Source of the DNA: Deltaproteobacteria bacterium
GTDB lineage: Bacteria > JAGRBM01 > JAHCIT01
Direction: 5' to 3'
Length of the DNA: 64,000 nt
NCBI GenBank assembly: GCA_026129095.1
Contig: JAHCIT010000004.1
Coordinates: forward strand, 186,001 to 250,000
Each line of letters starts with the position of its first letter. Within the stretch, counting starts at the first letter, position 1. The notes under the pieces were generated by a model. It ran no database searches and had not been told where the DNA came from. It saw only the letters and a program-made list of their open reading frames with translations. A program made the translations under genes and the position numbers. Below are positions 2 through 64,000 of the stretch, piece after piece.

Positions 2-226
2 AGGGAGATCATCCGGGTGGTCGAAAACGGCGAAGAGAAGGAACTCTGGACCGGCGGCTATATCTTCGAGAACGAATGGCAGAGTTACCGGACCCGTAAG
101 GACCGGTCTCTGGAACTATCCAGTGGAACGCATGAATATTCCGGCAAGGGCAAATACAAGATCGCAGTAAAGGTGATCGATATCTTCGGCAACGACACAA
201 CCAAGGTGCTGGAGGTGAAAGTCTGA
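2..226 (+). CDS. Site-specific DNA methyltransferase, C-terminal fragment (partial)
   Basis: Only the last 74 codons are in the window; the reading frame is already open at base 2 and ends at TGA 224-226. The visible tail contains TGGYIFENEWQSYR and ends in KVIDIFGNDTTKVLEVKV, which I recognise from the C-termini of adenine-type DNA methyltransferases that precede Type III-like restriction helicases. The stop codon shares one base with the ATG of the restriction gene (TGATG), so the two are translationally coupled. By family knowledge it would methylate host sites and protect them from the neighbouring nuclease. The catalytic motifs lie upstream of the window, so the call rests on the tail and the context. 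The internal GTG at 17 is not a real start. Confidence 0.6.
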   Translation, partial: REIIRVVENGEEKELWTGGYIFENEWQSYRTRKDRSLELSSGTHEYSGKGKYKIAVKVIDIFGNDTTKVLEVKV

Positions 227-2901
227 TGGGCTTCCACCCGCAGTTTCCCACTGACCCGTATCAGATTATTCACCCTGACGTTCGCTGGTATCCGGGCGAG
301 GAGTTGCTGGGACGAATCGGTCTCGCAAATCTCCTGCCGCCGCTGGTACACCGCATACGGGAGGGCGTATGGAAGTGGAGGGATTCCGGATATGCAGGCG
401 CCAGTGCGACGACCAAGGCACTGCTCCGGCACTGGTTCGAGACGGAACATCTCCTGCCGCAAACCGACGAAACCGTCGGAAAGTTCCGCTATTACTTTTC
501 CCAGCGTGAAGCGGTCGAATCGGCCATCTGGCTCTATGAAATAGAAGAAGCCCGCGACCCCTACGGGCTCATCAAATATGACACCGCCGGGCAGGTCACT
601 AAAAGCATGTTCCGGGAGGACTGGACCCGGTACGTGATGAAACTGGCGACCGGCGCCGGAAAGACCAAGGTGATGAGCCTGCTCATCGCGTGGTCGTACT
701 TCCACAAGATCTATGAGGAAGATTCCGAACTCAGCAAGAACTTTTTGCTGATCGCGCCGAATATCATTGTGCTTGACCGGTTGGCGACCGACTTTGACGG
801 CCTGAAGATATTTTTTGCCGATCCGGTGCTTCCGGACAACGGGTACGAGGGCCGGAACTGGCGTGACGATTTTCAGATCACGCTCCACAAACAGGATCAT
901 GTCAGCAACGTCTCCCCAACCGGCAATATCTTCCTGACCAACATTCACCGGGTCTACGAGAAGGAAGAGGCCCCGAAGACGTTTGAGGAAGCCAAAGACA
1001 AGCTCGATTTCTTCGCCGGTCCCCGCCCCACCGGGAAAACCACGGATTCAAAGGTGGACCTCGGCGATATCATCCGGAACGTCTCGGAACTGGTCGTCAT
1101 CAACGACGAGGCGCACCACGTCCATGAGGAAGACCTGGCTTGGTTCAAGAGCATCGGGGACATTTCAAATCGCCTGAAACTGAAGGGCGGCAAGCTCTCG
1201 GCGCAGTTCGACCTCACGGCGACCCCAAAACACACCAACGGCGCGATTTTCGTTCAGACGGTCAGCGACTATCCCCTTGTCGAAGCCGTCAGGCAGGGGG
1301 TCGTGAAGACGCCGGTGCTCCCCGATCCGGCCTCACGGGCAAAACTTCAGGAGCGGAAAAGTGCGAAGTTCTCGGAGCGGTACCGGGATTATCTCCAGCT
1401 CGGCTATCTGGAATGGGAAAAGGTTTATGACGAGCTGGAACCGGCCGGAAAGAAGTCGATCCTGTTCGTAATGACCGACGACACGAAGAACTGCGATGAA
1501 GTGGCGGATTACCTCGTCAAGACTTTCCCGAAGCTGGAGGATGGTGTTCTGGTCATTCACACCAAGAACAATGGTGAGATCTCGGAGTCCTCAACCGGCA
1601 AGAACAAGGACGAACTGGACAGGCTCCGTAAGCTGAGCCGTGAGATTGATAGCTGGGATAATCCGTACAAAGCGATCGTATCCGTGATGGTGCTGCGCGA
1701 AGGCTGGGACGTGCAGAACGTCGTTTCGATTGTCGGCCTTCGACCGTTCAAAGCGGCGAGCAAGATTCTTCCCGAGCAGACCATTGGGCGCGGCCTCAGG
1801 CGGATGTTCCGGGGTCAGGACATCCAGGAGAAGGTCAGTGTGATCGGGACCGATGCCTTCATCGATTTTGTGGAATCCATCAAGGATGAAGGCGTTGAAT
1901 TGGAATACGCGGCGATGAGTGACCGGACCAAGCCTCAATCGCCGACCGTGATCGAGGTGGACTCGGAGAACCGGAAGAAGGATATCGAAGCCCTTGATAT
2001 AGAAATCCCGGTCTTGGCACCGCGAATCTACAGGGAATACAAGAACCTGGCCGAGATCAATGTTTCAGAGCTGCCTGCTCCGAAGCTGAAGCTGATTCCG
2101 TTCACGCCGGAGCAGCAACGGGAAATCATCTTTCTGGAGATCGACACTGGAGCCGAGAGCCACAAGACCCTGATGGACGGGGATTTTGTCCCCAACCATC
2201 AGAATATGATTACATTCTTCGCCCGAAGCCTGATGCGTGAACTGCACCTGGTTGGTGGATTCGACGGACTGTTCGGGATGATGAAGGATTATATCCAAAA
2301 CCGGCTGTTCGAAATACCGGTCGATCTGGATGACCTCAATGTTCTCCGGAATATGTCCGAAATCGAACCGGTCAGGACGATTCAGGAAACCTTCCGGAAG
2401 GCGATCAACGATCTGACGATTCAGGACACGGGCACAACGAAGATCCAGGAATATATCAAGGTCAGCAAGACGCGACCTTACCTGTCCGACAAGAAGGAGT
2501 ATTTCAGGCCGGACAAGTCGATCTTCAACAAGGTGGTGGGCGACAGCCAGCTTGAACTCGACTTTGCGGTATTTCTCGACAAGTGCCCGGACATCGTTTC
2601 GTACTTCAAGAACTCCAACGCGACCCACTTCAAAATCGAATACAACAAGGCCGGCGGCGGCATTGCCGACTATTATCCGGATTTCGTCGTGAACCAGGAC
2701 GGCAATAACTTCTGGATTATTGAGACCAAAGGCCGGGAAGATCTGGACGATCCTCAGAAATGGGAACGCCTCAAGCAATGGTGCGAAGACGCAACTTCAC
2801 TGGAGCCGAAGAAACGCTACCGGGCACTGTTCGTCCGGCAGGACGAGTGGGAGAAATACCATCCGGCGACGTTTAACGAACTGGTGAAGGCGGTTGGTTA
2901 A
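226..2901 (+). CDS. Type III-like restriction endonuclease subunit (DEAD/DEAH helicase plus PD-(D/E)XK nuclease)
   Basis: An 891-residue restriction subunit. Visible motifs in order: Walker A ATGAGKT at residues 141-147, DEAHH Walker B/motif II at 294-298, a helicase C-terminal domain with LREGWDVQNV and motif VI QTIGRGLRR near 518-526, then a nuclease end with YYPDF (Asp819) and ETKG (Glu833, Lys835), the spacing of a PD-(D/E)XK site. This matches the Res subunits of Type III-like restriction systems, which translocate on and cut DNA lacking the partner's methylation. It is coupled by a one-base overlap to the methyltransferase end upstream. Base composition is visibly more AT-rich than the genes after position 3755, in keeping with horizontal acquisition. 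Its stop (2899-2901) lies one base before the left copy of the 74-bp repeat. All key motifs look intact, so the enzyme is probably active. Confidence 0.88.
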   Translation: MGFHPQFPTDPYQIIHPDVRWYPGEELLGRIGLANLLPPLVHRIREGVWKWRDSGYAGASATTKALLRHWFETEHLLPQTDETVGKFRYYFSQREAVESAIWLYEIEEARDPYGLIKYDTAGQVTKSMFREDWTRYVMKLATGAGKTKVMSLLIAWSYFHKIYEEDSELSKNFLLIAPNIIVLDRLATDFDGLKIFFADPVLPDNGYEGRNWRDDFQITLHKQDHVSNVSPTGNIFLTNIHRVYEKEEAPKTFEEAKDKLDFFAGPRPTGKTTDSKVDLGDIIRNVSELVVINDEAHHVHEEDLAWFKSIGDISNRLKLKGGKLSAQFDLTATPKHTNGAIFVQTVSDYPLVEAVRQGVVKTPVLPDPASRAKLQERKSAKFSERYRDYLQLGYLEWEKVYDELEPAGKKSILFVMTDDTKNCDEVADYLVKTFPKLEDGVLVIHTKNNGEISESSTGKNKDELDRLRKLSREIDSWDNPYKAIVSVMVLREGWDVQNVVSIVGLRPFKAASKILPEQTIGRGLRRMFRGQDIQEKVSVIGTDAFIDFVESIKDEGVELEYAAMSDRTKPQSPTVIEVDSENRKKDIEALDIEIPVLAPRIYREYKNLAEINVSELPAPKLKLIPFTPEQQREIIFLEIDTGAESHKTLMDGDFVPNHQNMITFFARSLMRELHLVGGFDGLFGMMKDYIQNRLFEIPVDLDDLNVLRNMSEIEPVRTIQETFRKAINDLTIQDTGTTKIQEYIKVSKTRPYLSDKKEYFRPDKSIFNKVVGDSQLELDFAVFLDKCPDIVSYFKNSNATHFKIEYNKAGGGIADYYPDFVVNQDGNNFWIIETKGREDLDDPQKWERLKQWCEDATSLEPKKRYRALFVRQDEWEKYHPATFNELVKAVG

Positions 2902-2902
2902 C

Positions 2903-2976
2903 CCCCTCAGTGCAGCAGTTCGACGAGGCCGGGGGAGCGGAACTCCTGGAAATACCCGACGGCGGCGGAGACGGTC
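2903..2976. repeat. 74-bp direct repeat, left copy (candidate attachment site)
   Basis: This stretch is the same as 3755-3828 at 72 of 74 positions. Read on the minus strand it encodes the last 22 codons plus stop of the JAMM gene (YFQEFRS...GLVELLH, stop at 2907-2909) but is not attached to the rest of that gene. The two differences both change the protein (Glu to Gly, Leu to Pro), as expected for a copy not under selection or one brought in by an incoming element. The restriction gene ends one base before it, and the antitoxin stop codon (2975-2977) uses its last two bases. Confidence 0.85.
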
Positions 2977-3277
2977 ACGCCGCCAGGCGGATGCTTTTCG
3001 CGCCGAAGTTGGCGCGGATCTCCAGTTCGCCGCCGAGGGCCTCCACGCACTTGCGGAGCGTTGACACCAGATAGTCCGTCCGGTGCTCCAGCCGCGAGAT
3101 TTCCGACTGCGACATGGCGGTCGCCTTTGCCATCTCTTCCTGCGTTTTGCCCAGCAGTTCGCGGAGCGCCCGGATGTTGATCGCCAGCACTTCCTCGGCG
3201 GCGGCCTTCTCGATGCGTGCTATCGCCTCAGGCGAAAGCTGGCTGTCACGCAGTTCCTTCCACTTGTGGATCGCCAT
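2975..3277 (-). CDS. higA: HigA-type antitoxin, XRE/Cro helix-turn-helix protein
   Basis: A 100-residue protein with a central lambda-type helix-turn-helix: the segment LLGKTQEEMAKATAMSQSEI (about residues 42-61) followed by SRLEHRTD is the usual XRE two-helix signature. It is the downstream gene of a toxin-first pair; the toxin stop at 3281-3283 lies three bases before its ATG (3277), so the two are surely co-transcribed. By family knowledge HigA-type antitoxins bind both the toxin and the operator of their own promoter. Its stop codon falls exactly on the boundary of the 74-bp repeat, so the cassette ends where the gene ends. Confidence is high for the fold and good for the HigA role. Confidence 0.85.
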   Translation of the reverse strand: MAIHKWKELRDSQLSPEAIARIEKAAAEEVLAINIRALRELLGKTQEEMAKATAMSQSEISRLEHRTDYLVSTLRKCVEALGGELEIRANFGAKSIRLAA

Positions 3278-3280
3278 GAG

Positions 3281-3664
3281 TCACCCTTTGCCTTTCTTCT
3301 GCGAGGCCGAAGCCCTTTCCATCTCTTCACGTTCAGCGAGGTACTGCTTCCAGATTTTCTCCGCCACCGGTATCCAGGTCCGGTAGAACCGGCCGTCGTC
3401 CTGTCCTTCCTTGTCGCCCCCGATAATCAGGACGGCATCCCGCGTCCTGTCGAACGCATAGAAAACCCGGATCGGCCTGCCCTTCGACTGGACCCGCAAC
3501 TCCCTCAGGGCGATGCTGGCCCCCCTGATCTCGCTGCTATGAGGATAACCCAGTGCAACACCGCATTGCTCCAGCAGTTCAACGGAGTAGGCAACCGATT
3601 CCTTGTCCGTGTCGTCCAGCGCCCTGTACCAGTCGCCGAACTCATCGGTATGCACCACTTCCAC
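3281..3664 (-). CDS. higB: HigB-type toxin (RelE/ParE superfamily, phage Gp49-like)
   Basis: A 127-residue protein whose N-terminus (VVHTDEFGDWYRALD) and core (LRELRVQSKGRPIRVFYAFD, then VLIIGGDK) fit the HigB/Gp49-like branch of RelE toxins, which cut mRNA on the ribosome. Start GTG at 3662-3664 is chosen because family members begin just before the T-D-E-F segment. The toxin-first order and the three-base gap to the XRE gene are typical of higBA. A strong sigma70-type promoter ends only a few bases before this start (see 3671-3699). The C-terminus ends in a lysine-rich tail. The whole pair is enclosed by the 74-bp direct repeats. Confidence 0.83.
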   Translation of the reverse strand: MEVVHTDEFGDWYRALDDTDKESVAYSVELLEQCGVALGYPHSSEIRGASIALRELRVQSKGRPIRVFYAFDRTRDAVLIIGGDKEGQDDGRFYRTWIPVAEKIWKQYLAEREEMERASASQKKGKG

Positions 3665-3670
3665 CCTGCA

Positions 3671-3699
3671 ATTATGAGGTTAAACACATAATGATGCAA
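3671..3699 (-). promoter_or_regulatory. higBA promoter with overlapping inverted-repeat operator
   Basis: On the minus strand TTGCAT (3694-3699) and CATAAT (3671-3676) are separated by exactly 17 bases, a good sigma70-type promoter. The −10 hexamer is also one arm of an inverted repeat (ATTATG 3671-3676, CATAAT 3687-3692, 10-base spacer), a natural operator for the HigA repressor. The expected transcription start falls at about 3664-3665, on or next to the GTG start, which would make the mRNA nearly leaderless. Confidence 0.6.
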
Positions 3700-3754
3700 G
3701 TGAAAAAATAGCCGCCCAGGCCAACCGGTAAGCCCAATATATTCAGAGGCTAAT

Positions 3755-3828
3755 CCCCTCAGTGCAGCAGTTCGACGAGGCCGAGGGAGCGGAACTCCTG
3801 GAAATACTCGACGGCGGCGGAGACGGTC
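3755..3828. repeat. 74-bp direct repeat, right copy (3' end of the JAMM gene)
   Basis: This copy is the genuine 3' end of the metalloprotease gene: it holds its last 22 codons, the stop (3759-3761) and four bases beyond. The partner is 2903-2976, giving an enclosed cassette of 778 bp that contains only higBA and its promoter. A repeat covering the 3' end of a gene and leaving it intact is how many site-specific integrases leave their target, but no recombinase gene is present in the window. Confidence 0.85.
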
Positions 3829-4580
3829 TGCGGGTCGCGCTGCTGGGCGGCGCGGCCGCTGCGGCCGACGGTGATCCGGCGGGTCTCGCCGTAGACGCGG
3901 ATGAACTCGCCGAGCGATGACGCCCGCGCCGTCTGGAGGTGGCGGAAGAACTCGTACTGCGGCGAGGCGGGCTGGTAGGGGAGCTTGCGGCTCCGCGAGA
4001 CGCGGATCTTCAGCGACTCCTCGGGGTTCACGCCGGGGCGCGCGAAGGCGTCCACGACGGTCTTCTCCCGCTGGTAGCTGACGGCGAAGGGGCAGAGCAG
4101 CGCCACCTGGCGCACGCTCCCCTCGGTGATGCCGCGGTAGTAGGCGCTCATCTTGAGGCGGTAGCCGCTCACGGTGCCGGAGAGGTTCCCCTTGCGGTCG
4201 TATTTCCAGTGGGAACGGCGGCCGGTCTCGTGCAGGCTGATGACGACGGAGACGAACCGCTTGCCCATCGTGGCGACGTCGGTGTCGGAGAGGATGGGCT
4301 CCCAGGTCTGCCCGGCGTAGTCGGGGTGCGAGTGGAAGTCGCCCACCTTCCGCCAGCGGTGGAACTCGTCCATGAGCTGCCCCACCCGGCCCACGCGCTG
4401 CGTGCTGACGGACACCTCCATGAACTTGCGCTCGGCCGACTGGAGCGGCACGGCGAGGTCCACGTGGCAGGCGTCGTCGGTCATGTGCCCCAGCAGGTAG
4501 CCGAAGCACTCGCGCTTGTAGACCTCGACGGCCGCCACGGTGAGCGCGACAAACGCCTGATCCGAAAGATAGACTCGCAT
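3759..4580 (-). CDS. JAMM/MPN+ family zinc metalloprotease
   Basis: A 273-residue protein with an N-terminal JAB1/MPN domain. The zinc-site residues are visible: Glu24 in ECFGYLLG, His83 and His85 in FHSHPDY, Ser98 and Asp101 in LSDTD, although the gap between the second His and the Ser is 12 residues rather than the usual seven. Such proteins cleave isopeptide or C-terminal bonds of ubiquitin-like proteins, or release amino acids from sulfur carriers. No ubiquitin-like, E1-like or cysteine/sulfur gene is nearby, so the substrate is unknown. The last 130 residues are an extension of unknown function. Start ATG 4578-4580 is preceded by GGAG at good spacing; the frame stays open further upstream without support. 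The gene end is the target of the 74-bp duplication. Confidence 0.78.
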   Translation of the reverse strand: MRVYLSDQAFVALTVAAVEVYKRECFGYLLGHMTDDACHVDLAVPLQSAERKFMEVSVSTQRVGRVGQLMDEFHRWRKVGDFHSHPDYAGQTWEPILSDTDVATMGKRFVSVVISLHETGRRSHWKYDRKGNLSGTVSGYRLKMSAYYRGITEGSVRQVALLCPFAVSYQREKTVVDAFARPGVNPEESLKIRVSRSRKLPYQPASPQYEFFRHLQTARASSLGEFIRVYGETRRITVGRSGRAAQQRDPQTVSAAVEYFQEFRSLGLVELLH

Positions 4581-4816
4581 GGCCTCATCTCCGCTCCGCC
4601 GGTTCCTTCCTCGTGTGCCTGTGAAGGACGGCGTATCTGCTTTGCGTGTAACGTCCGGGGCCTGTCCGCTGCGGCGCATCCAGGGGGCTGGATTCAGCGT
4701 CAGGCCATGCCACGGCTCGCTGGGGGAAAGTGTGGAGCCGGGCCGGATGGCGTGGCAAGGGAGGGGGCCATCGGGGAGCGCGGTAGTGTCTGAAATACCC
4801 AGTTATCCCAACAAGT

Positions 4817-61690: not shown

Positions 61691-64000
61691 ATGCCAATCC
61701 AGAACGGACGCCAGCGCAAGCTGCTGGCCACCACCATCCTTTTCGCCACGCTCTTCTTTACCGGCTGTTCGTTTGCCGTGGTACCGCAGACCTGGCCCGC
61801 CATCATGGTCGCCATGGTGCTGGTGTTTGCGGCCGCCTGCGGAAACGGCACGACCTCCACGTCGACAGACGATGATGACGATGACCTGACCGGCTGCGGC
61901 CCCCGTCAGACCATCGTCGAGATCTTCGACAACGACGTGGACAACTGTATTGGTTTCCGGATCACCCTGAGCGGGGATAATGGCCTTGGACGGTCCGTTG
62001 CACCGGCCGGCGACATCAACGGCGACGGTTTCGACGACATCCTGATCGGACTCTCCCGCCGGGATCTGTCAAACGAAGGCCGTGGGTCTGCAGTGGTGCT
62101 GAAGGGAAAAGCGGGGCCGTTCAGCGATATCAGCCTCGACAGCCTGTCATCCGGCGACGGTTTCCGGATCGACGGCCAGGATGAAGCCGTATACGTCTAC
62201 GAAGGCGGGGCATACTACTGGGAATGGGATCAGGACCAGCGGTTCGGACGGGCACTGGCGGGCGGCACCGACTTCAACGGCGACGGCTTCGCCGACATGA
62301 TATTCGGATCGCACCTTACCCGGTGGGGGTATTATTACGAATGGACCGGAGAAGGGGCCTTCACCGAAGGCTATGACAATTATGACAATGGCCGCGGGTA
62401 CATCCTGTTCGGCCGGGAAACGGACTTCTCCCATCCCCTGCCATTTACCAGCTTCGATTTCGGTGAAGGTGGTGGCCTTGTGGTCCGGGGCAGCCAGGAA
62501 GACGGGCTTTTTGGCTTTTCGGCGGCCTCCTCATGGGACATGAACGGCGACGGGTTTGCCGAAGCCCTGTTTGGTTCACATTCCTACCAGACCCAAGCTG
62601 AAGGCACCTATCACGGGCTTGCCTGGATTGCCCGTGGCACCGATAGCCATACCGGCGGGTTTGAATCCGGTGACATTGGCGGAGAGGGTCTCCCCGGTAA
62701 CCGGATATCCCACCCAGGAAATTCGGGATACGGATTCGGGTTTGCGCTCGCCGGAAGCGGCGATGTGAACGGCGATGGATACGCCGACATTGCTGTTTCC
62801 AATCCCTGGCTGCACATCGAGGGCGATAACTCCGGACGGGCCTACGTCGTGACCGGCAGCCCCGTCATGAACGACAATAACAACCGGGTGCCATCAATCG
62901 CTTTGTCTGCCGATGGCTATGGATGGTATTTGGGCCACAGCGTGGCGTTCGCCGACGTGAACGGCGACGGGTACAGCGACCTGATCGTTGGCGTACCGGC
63001 CTTTGGGGTCGAGGGCGAAGGCTCGGAAGGCATCGTGGCAGTACGGTTTGGATACAGCGGATACAGTGAGGGGTTCCCATATAACCAGTCCTTGGGAAGC
63101 CTGAACGGGTCCAACGGTTTCATGCTGTTTGGCAGTGCCGCCAACGATGGAACCGGAAGGTCCGTCGCCGGTATCGGCGATTTCAACGGGGATGGCTTCG
63201 ACGACATTCTCATCGGGGCTCCGTTTGCAGACCCGACTACCGGCGATATCGAAGGGATCAACAGCGCCGGAAAGGCCTATATCGTTTTCGGCAAGGCTGA
63301 CTGGACAGCCGATGGCGGCACGATGTCACTCAGCACGCTGAACGGCATGAACGGTATCACCGTTAGCGGAACACTGGCGGGCAGCATGCTCGGCTACTCG
63401 GTTGCCGCCGGCGGCGACATCAACGGCGACGGTTTCGCGGACGTCCTGATCGGCTCACTCGGCTATTACGGGGACGGGAAACAGGTACTGGTCCTGTTTG
63501 GCGGCGACGTGACCGGCAGCGTAACGGCTGAAGGCACAGCAGCCGGTGATACCCTGTCCGTGTCGGGTGGCGGCGCCGCCGTGGGAGGCCGCGGGAACGA
63601 CATCATCACCGCTACCGGCGAGGGAAATACGCTGATCGGCGGCGCTGGCCATGACCTGTTCGAAGTCAGCGAGCCGTATTTCCAGAAGGTGGACGGCGGC
63701 TCCGGCTTTGACGTCCTTCGCTTCACCCAAAGCGGCTACACGATCAGAACGGGCAAAGGCTGGTGGTCGAATAACCGCAACGCCGGGCTGGATATCCGGA
63801 ATATCGAGGCGATCGACCTTGGCGGAACAGGTGAAGGGAATGCTCTCCAATTGTCCCGCGGAGCGATCTCGCTCATGTCCACCACATCGTCGTCTCTGTA
63901 TATTCTTGGTGGAACGAACGATTACGCCTGTACCTATGGCACCTCATGGAGCATGGGAGATGGCCAGTCGATCGATATTGGTGGCGATACCATCCAGTTC
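61691..64000 (+). CDS. FG-GAP repeat lipoprotein with RTX-like tail (partial, continues past the window)
   Basis: Open from ATG 61691 (GGAGGGG just upstream) to the last base, 770 codons so far. Two hydrophobic segments follow one another at the start, each ending in a lipobox-like cysteine (FFTGC, Cys26, and FAAAC, Cys50), then an Asp-rich spacer. Residues 100-590 are seven FG-GAP calcium-binding repeats of the form DxNGDGxxD with the following hydrophobic strand (for example GDINGDGFDDILIG), the integrin-alpha beta-propeller pattern. Near 640-660 are RTX-like glycine/Asp nonapeptides (GGRGNDIITA, GGAGHDLFEV) and a trailing beta-rich segment. The protein is likely a large surface adhesin or calcium-dependent binding protein. 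Confidence 0.83.
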   Translation, partial: MPIQNGRQRKLLATTILFATLFFTGCSFAVVPQTWPAIMVAMVLVFAAACGNGTTSTSTDDDDDDLTGCGPRQTIVEIFDNDVDNCIGFRITLSGDNGLGRSVAPAGDINGDGFDDILIGLSRRDLSNEGRGSAVVLKGKAGPFSDISLDSLSSGDGFRIDGQDEAVYVYEGGAYYWEWDQDQRFGRALAGGTDFNGDGFADMIFGSHLTRWGYYYEWTGEGAFTEGYDNYDNGRGYILFGRETDFSHPLPFTSFDFGEGGGLVVRGSQEDGLFGFSAASSWDMNGDGFAEALFGSHSYQTQAEGTYHGLAWIARGTDSHTGGFESGDIGGEGLPGNRISHPGNSGYGFGFALAGSGDVNGDGYADIAVSNPWLHIEGDNSGRAYVVTGSPVMNDNNNRVPSIALSADGYGWYLGHSVAFADVNGDGYSDLIVGVPAFGVEGEGSEGIVAVRFGYSGYSEGFPYNQSLGSLNGSNGFMLFGSAANDGTGRSVAGIGDFNGDGFDDILIGAPFADPTTGDIEGINSAGKAYIVFGKADWTADGGTMSLSTLNGMNGITVSGTLAGSMLGYSVAAGGDINGDGFADVLIGSLGYYGDGKQVLVLFGGDVTGSVTAEGTAAGDTLSVSGGGAAVGGRGNDIITATGEGNTLIGGAGHDLFEVSEPYFQKVDGGSGFDVLRFTQSGYTIRTGKGWWSNNRNAGLDIRNIEAIDLGGTGEGNALQLSRGAISLMSTTSSSLYILGGTNDYACTYGTSWSMGDGQSIDIGGDTIQF

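Follow-up and report, generated by a model that had tools for sequence, protein, structure and literature searches.

A higBA operon bracketed by a duplicated gene 3' end and its probable insertion with a long target duplication

The higBA locus and its neighbors

The window, a stretch of 64,000 nucleotides (C4:186001-250000) from a draft deltaproteobacterial genome assembly of 23 contigs, carries at its left end a putative restriction-modification island, a higBA toxin-antitoxin operon, and a metalloprotease-like gene. The features are as follows (window positions unless C4 is given).

C4:184130-186226, mostly left of the window: mod gene, 698 amino acids (N6_N4_Mtase, 1.4e-47)
226..2901, + strand: res, Type III-like restriction subunit, 891 amino acids (ResIII, 1.4e-14; RE_endonuc)
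2903..2976, - strand: far repeat copy, detached, with the last JAMM codons, the stop, and 4 bp; homology continues to 2896 (72/74 versus 3755-3828; 77/81 versus 3748-3828)
2975..3277, - strand: higA antitoxin, 100 amino acids, HTH_3 (Pfam HTH_3, 4.8e-10); its stop and the far copy share 2 bp
3281..3664, - strand: higB toxin, 127 amino acids, Gp49/RelE-ParE type, GTG start (Pfam Gp49, 1.8e-15)
3665..3754, - strand: putative higBA promoter/operator region, GC 0.42, with the palindrome ATTATG-N10-CATAAT at 3671-3692
3755..3828, - strand: near repeat copy, the genuine JAMM 3' end, which extends 4 bp beyond the stop (TGA GGGG), in frame with ORF 3759-4583
3759..4583, - strand: JAMM/Prok-JAB metalloprotease-like target gene, 274 amino acids (Pfam Prok-JAB, 3.6e-5, just under the cut-off; PADLOC JAB, 4.3e-7)

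The genes between the two repeat copies are predicted to encode a HigBA type II toxin-antitoxin system, with a RelE/Gp49 toxin followed by an HTH antitoxin and preceded by an operator-like site. HigA aligned over its full length with Mycobacterium tuberculosis HigA2 (7ewc, 101 amino acids; E value, 3.8e-8), and higB is present as a single copy in the genome. The perfect palindrome before higB, the sole one of its kind in the window (0.02 expected), is a likely HigA operator. The insert is 778 bp plus one repeat copy and holds only higA, higB, and ~90 bp of promoter region; no transposase or integrase was identified in it or in the mod-res island. A terminator-like hairpin with a T-run, located in the JAMM-higB interval on the - strand (3709-3723), does not exceed the shuffled expectation.

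The 74-bp sequences at 2903-2976 and 3755-3828 are identical at 72 positions, and the bracketing of higBA by this repeat, the central observation of an earlier note on this DNA, is confirmed. The right copy is the real, in-frame end of the JAMM gene. The left copy is detached and would translate as TVSAAVGYFQEFRSPGLVELLH before its stop, with two non-synonymous changes relative to JAMM (E to G and L to P) and a decay of 2.7% over the 74 bp. The same note had correctly placed the antitoxin stop on the repeat border and the res stop one base from the left copy, and it had seen no recombinase beside the cassette, in agreement with our annotation. Homology between the copies runs 7 bp further left (to 2896 and 3748), giving 77 identical positions out of 81 and four differences, all of which are transitions; exact identity extends over at most 29 bp. 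The 81-bp repeat has no third place in the whole 3.67-Mb genome, and a search for further copies to the left of the window, as suggested in that note, found none. In the 84 kb around the locus, we found no other direct repeats of at least 40 bp and more than 90% identity. The 7-bp extension enters the end of res (GGTTAAC/GGCTAAT; chance, ~0.002, calculated post hoc), which suggests that res and JAMM were adjacent before higBA arrived, an indication of little weight given that the other cases described below have no such extension. Elsewhere in the window, positions 61994 to 63453 hold five copies of FG-GAP-like intragenic repeats.

The JAMM motif HSHPDYAGQTWEPILSDTD is intact, and the base composition of the gene (GC, 0.69; GC3, 0.96) is host-like. 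Searches of genome contigs, plasmids, phages, and viral contigs identified no relatives of JAMM other than those at 30-31%, from another phylum. No empty JAMM site was found in relatives either: the phylum comprises two species, and the other one (G001) has neither JAMM nor the left-flank gene, its synteny with the window's genome being limited to an ntrBC-like pair.

On the basis of their domains, mod and res are predicted to form a Type III restriction-modification system, with an N6/N4 methyltransferase and a ResIII helicase that has a C-terminal endonuclease domain (PF01555, PF04851, and PF19778). Together with the detached tail and higBA, they lie in a low-GC stretch (~0.55, about C4:184100 to 189750) against a background of 0.68. 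Relatives of mod-res at 55-59% identity are found in Anaerolineales, Uhrbacteria, Acidimicrobiia, WWE3, and two rhizobial plasmids, and this gene pair has spread horizontally. None of the six relatives examined has the window's higBA beside it, and we therefore rejected joint travel of mod-res and higBA and regard mod-res as moving on its own; the two units differ in GC3 as well (0.75-0.83 in higBA versus 0.65-0.73 in mod-res). The C terminus of res (KAVG before the stop) is similar to that of a relative (VVGN before the stop), and therefore res probably ends naturally at the repeat border. The proposal that mod-res is a second unit of the same kind as higBA is not shown, there being neither a third repeat copy nor a further long direct repeat at the outer edge of the island. 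A 9-bp match, GCTAATCCC, to the left of mod was judged to be due to chance. As read from their sequences, a GIY-YIG-like endonuclease lies between mod and res in the Anaerolineales relative (L008, 7535-7834), and an ATP-binding, Schlafen-like protein is encoded at the corresponding place in WWE3 (L011, 6489-7946).

Direct duplications around related operons

Relatives of the toxin were searched for, and their flanks were then checked for bracketing direct repeats. Such duplications, of roughly 75-115 bp and involving unrelated target genes, were present at 5 of the 31 chromosomal Gp49-type loci (the window included) and at none of the 14 plasmid and 17 viral-contig loci. The flank-duplication scores, obtained by local alignment of the upstream and downstream flanks, were bimodal: the five loci scored 119 to 202, with a null maximum of 41, and the remaining 26 chromosomal loci exceeded their own null maxima by no more than 3 points. 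Outside the window, and with the DUF4258 case described below included, the duplications measured 78, 86, at least 100, 80, and 85 bp. Two Gp49 matches with equal scores, L082 and L093, lie 6.9 kb apart on one contig (G398:C46).

In G139, a genome from another phylum, higBA lies beside a glyoxalase gene, and the last 24 codons of that gene, its stop, and 4 bp (78 bp in total) recur with 100% identity on the far side. The site is empty in five relatives of G139, where a transporter gene and the glyoxalase gene are convergent and their stops are 28-84 bp apart, without an insert. In G139 itself, the site is occupied by higBA, the detached tail, and, outside the repeat, a flavin-reductase gene, and more than one event has probably taken place there. 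Between the glyoxalase gene and higB, a tRNA 3'-half-like fragment with CCA was noticed (L037, 1931-1975), in which ARAGORN finds no full tRNA.

The other duplications affect different parts of their targets: (i) in G388, 86 bp from the 3' end of an MmgE/PrpD gene, up to its TGA-GGG, recur (95% identity) beyond the Gp49-HTH_37 operon that follows this gene; (ii) in G389, a dehydrogenase-like gene has the operon at its 5' end and is duplicated exactly over at least 100 bp, up to the contig end; (iii) in G048, the 5' part of a putative DUF29-like gene (named from its sequence) is duplicated with 85% identity, for which paralogy is an alternative; and (iv) in the Anaerolineales locus L008, 80 bp from the 3' part of a CoA-transferase gene (85% identity) bracket a DUF4258 protein gene and a small partner, with mod-res beginning immediately after the detached copy, the same order as in the window. 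G048 also has an array (L043, 3100-6500) of 90- to 300-bp repeats spaced 0.9-1.3 kb apart, with small gene pairs between them that include a putative RelE/YafQ-like toxin pair; it looks cassette-like, but the repeats have no obvious hairpin fold.

The operons of G139 and G389 share 88% identity over exactly 760 bp and are located at two different targets, each of which is duplicated. This homology begins ~50 bp ahead of the toxin start and ends at the antitoxin stop; the sequences outside are unrelated, the rest of both inserts being unshared filler. The moving unit is therefore the operon with its promoter (~50 bp).

Among 429 kb scanned, we found eight direct repeats of 50-150 bp with at least 85% identity and a spacing of 0.5-2 kb. 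Only two of them, the one in the window and the one at the second higBA case (glyoxalase, G139), reach 95% identity. Three of the eight bracket toxin-antitoxin-type pairs, and the other five span less than 2% of the sequence. The enrichment at toxin-antitoxin pairs is strong, but it is not precisely quantified, given that the 429 kb was partly chosen around such operons and that the window was the seed.

Origin of the duplication

We consider insertion with a long target duplication at the JAMM 3' end to be the probable origin of the locus. The higBA operon, bare except for its own promoter, would have entered the end of the gene, and ~75-80 bp of the target (the last JAMM codons, the stop, and a few bases) would have been copied, so that one target copy completes the JAMM gene while the second is found on the far side of the operon. 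Each scar may stem from a single insertion event, in which a staggered break ~75-115 nt wide, or a switch of replication template, captured a foreign fragment and the gap was filled on both sides of it. The mod-res island would be a separate acquisition that probably already abutted JAMM. The catalyst would act in trans or be the host repair machinery. The genome lacks a Ku gene; classical end joining is therefore unavailable, and Ku-type joining was rejected, so another repair route or another enzyme would be required. Because no empty JAMM site was found, we infer insertion at this particular gene by analogy with the other cases. The lack of scars at the 14 plasmid and 17 viral-contig loci also speaks against this reading. 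Of the interpretation given in the earlier note, the entry of higBA as one compact unit, the intact gene, and the duplication scar are supported; the same scar is present at other genes in other genomes, and one of these sites is empty in the glyoxalase relatives. Its view of JAMM as a special accumulation site is not supported, since each case has a different target and no core is common to the duplicated sequences, nor is its view of mod-res as a repeat-bounded unit.

Site-specific integration would account for the position of the repeat in another way: a tyrosine (or serine) recombinase encoded elsewhere would insert a recombinase-less element that mimics the 3' end of a gene, restoring the gene and displacing its old end. 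Three targets are indeed gene 3' ends in which the block of identity ends 3-4 bp past the stop, as expected of a replacement gene end; the genome encodes seven tyrosine recombinases; and the tRNA 3'-half-like fragment in the G139 insert is, in our own reading, a typical relic of an attachment site. However, the target sequences are unrelated and have no core in common, and two more cases (G389 and G048) use the 5' parts of genes. In addition, the homology of the G139 and G389 inserts stops at the operon ends, without a shared attachment arm. None of the seven recombinase genes lies beside a repeat copy, and the longest word common to the repeat and their surroundings is ~13 bp; a link to these resident enzymes was rejected, as only such short words are shared. 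We regard integration of this kind as rather unlikely. An old local rearrangement that left a second tail, by tandem duplication or by recombination between strains with the [mod-res]-JAMM and [higBA]-JAMM arrangements, would involve no module-specific mobility. It is compatible with the decay of the left copy and its two non-synonymous changes, with the tight convergence of res and JAMM once higBA is removed, and with the fact that no related genome is available to order the events. It fails, however, to predict either scars of 75-115 bp recurring at unrelated targets or homology confined to the operon, and it appears distinctly improbable.

Cassettes that are mobilized in trans, namely integron gene cassettes (attC) and dif modules (XerCD), are both known to carry toxin-antitoxin operons without a recombinase of their own, and the size of the insert is cassette-like. 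Neither route agrees with the borders, where both were tested and rejected: no GTTRRRY/RYYYAAC core is present at either border, the predicted fold of the repeat is poorer than that of shuffled DNA (z, +2.4), and the best XerC/XerD 11-6-11 arm score is 12, against a mean maximum of 12.5 in shuffles. Moreover, what is repeated is target-gene coding sequence, and we give such a cassette hardly any credence. The draft state of the genome (23 contigs) leaves room for an assembly artefact, but the copies differ, the tail-higA junction is present only here, and a short-read misjoin is unlikely because the longest exact run, 29 bp, is too short to mislead an assembler; an artefact is thus extremely improbable.

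Returning to insertion with target duplication, the position of the duplicate edge deserves attention. Where a gene 3' end is clearly duplicated (three cases), the duplicate extends 3-4 bp beyond a TGA-GGG stop; among 132 mechanically picked genes, 2 have this context. Such an edge does not fit random breaks; selection for an intact gene explains the inclusion of the stop, but not the proximity of the edge to it. Because of this edge, it is conceivable, although doubtful, that small toxin-antitoxin operons are mobile elements that prefer sites just past TGA-GGG stops, duplicate the last 70-90 bp, and depend on a trans-acting enzyme shared across phyla, possibly with restriction systems too.

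Comparison with known systems

The locus shares with known HigBA systems that have a Gp49-type toxin the order of the genes (toxin first, HTH antitoxin second) and a palindromic operator-like site, and the genes themselves appear ordinary. Integrative elements are found in the 3' ends of protein genes, as in the case of e14 in icd, where the 3' end is duplicated and the gene remains intact; elements of this type carry an integrase gene, and a fixed attachment core is shared among them. The duplicated 3' end is common to such elements and higBA, whereas neither an integrase nor a fixed core is seen here. The Acinetobacter dif (pdif) modules resemble the higBA insert in that they are small, recombinase-less, often carry toxin-antitoxin genes, and are moved in trans (PMC10132070, PMC13141974), but they are bounded by XerC/XerD sites, none of which were found at higBA.

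The distribution of toxin-antitoxin systems implies high mobility, and according to a review, their fixation is not understood (PMC2654758). With a recognizable insertion scar, moves of chromosomal toxin-antitoxin operons that have no visible vehicle would become detectable and datable from sequence alone, the moving unit would be defined, and the search for the enzyme could be guided.

The closest parallel is provided by restriction-modification genes, for which insertion with a long, variable target duplication "in the order of 100 bp" has been described (PMC3031569, PMC3874152, and PMC1643837; after Nobusato et al. 2000 and Furuta et al. 2010). An addiction-type gene pair moving as a bare unit, direct duplication of the target, and the lack of a transposase are common to both. 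In contrast, the cargo here is a type II toxin-antitoxin operon, and the duplicated target is mostly a gene 3' end that includes the stop; in the window, the cargo is higBA and not a restriction-modification system, as mod-res lies outside the repeats. Our literature search found no description of insertion with long target duplication for toxin-antitoxin operons. The scars described here suggest that these operons move as bare units, by a route known until now mainly from restriction systems; toxin-antitoxin and restriction-modification systems would then have a common mode of movement.
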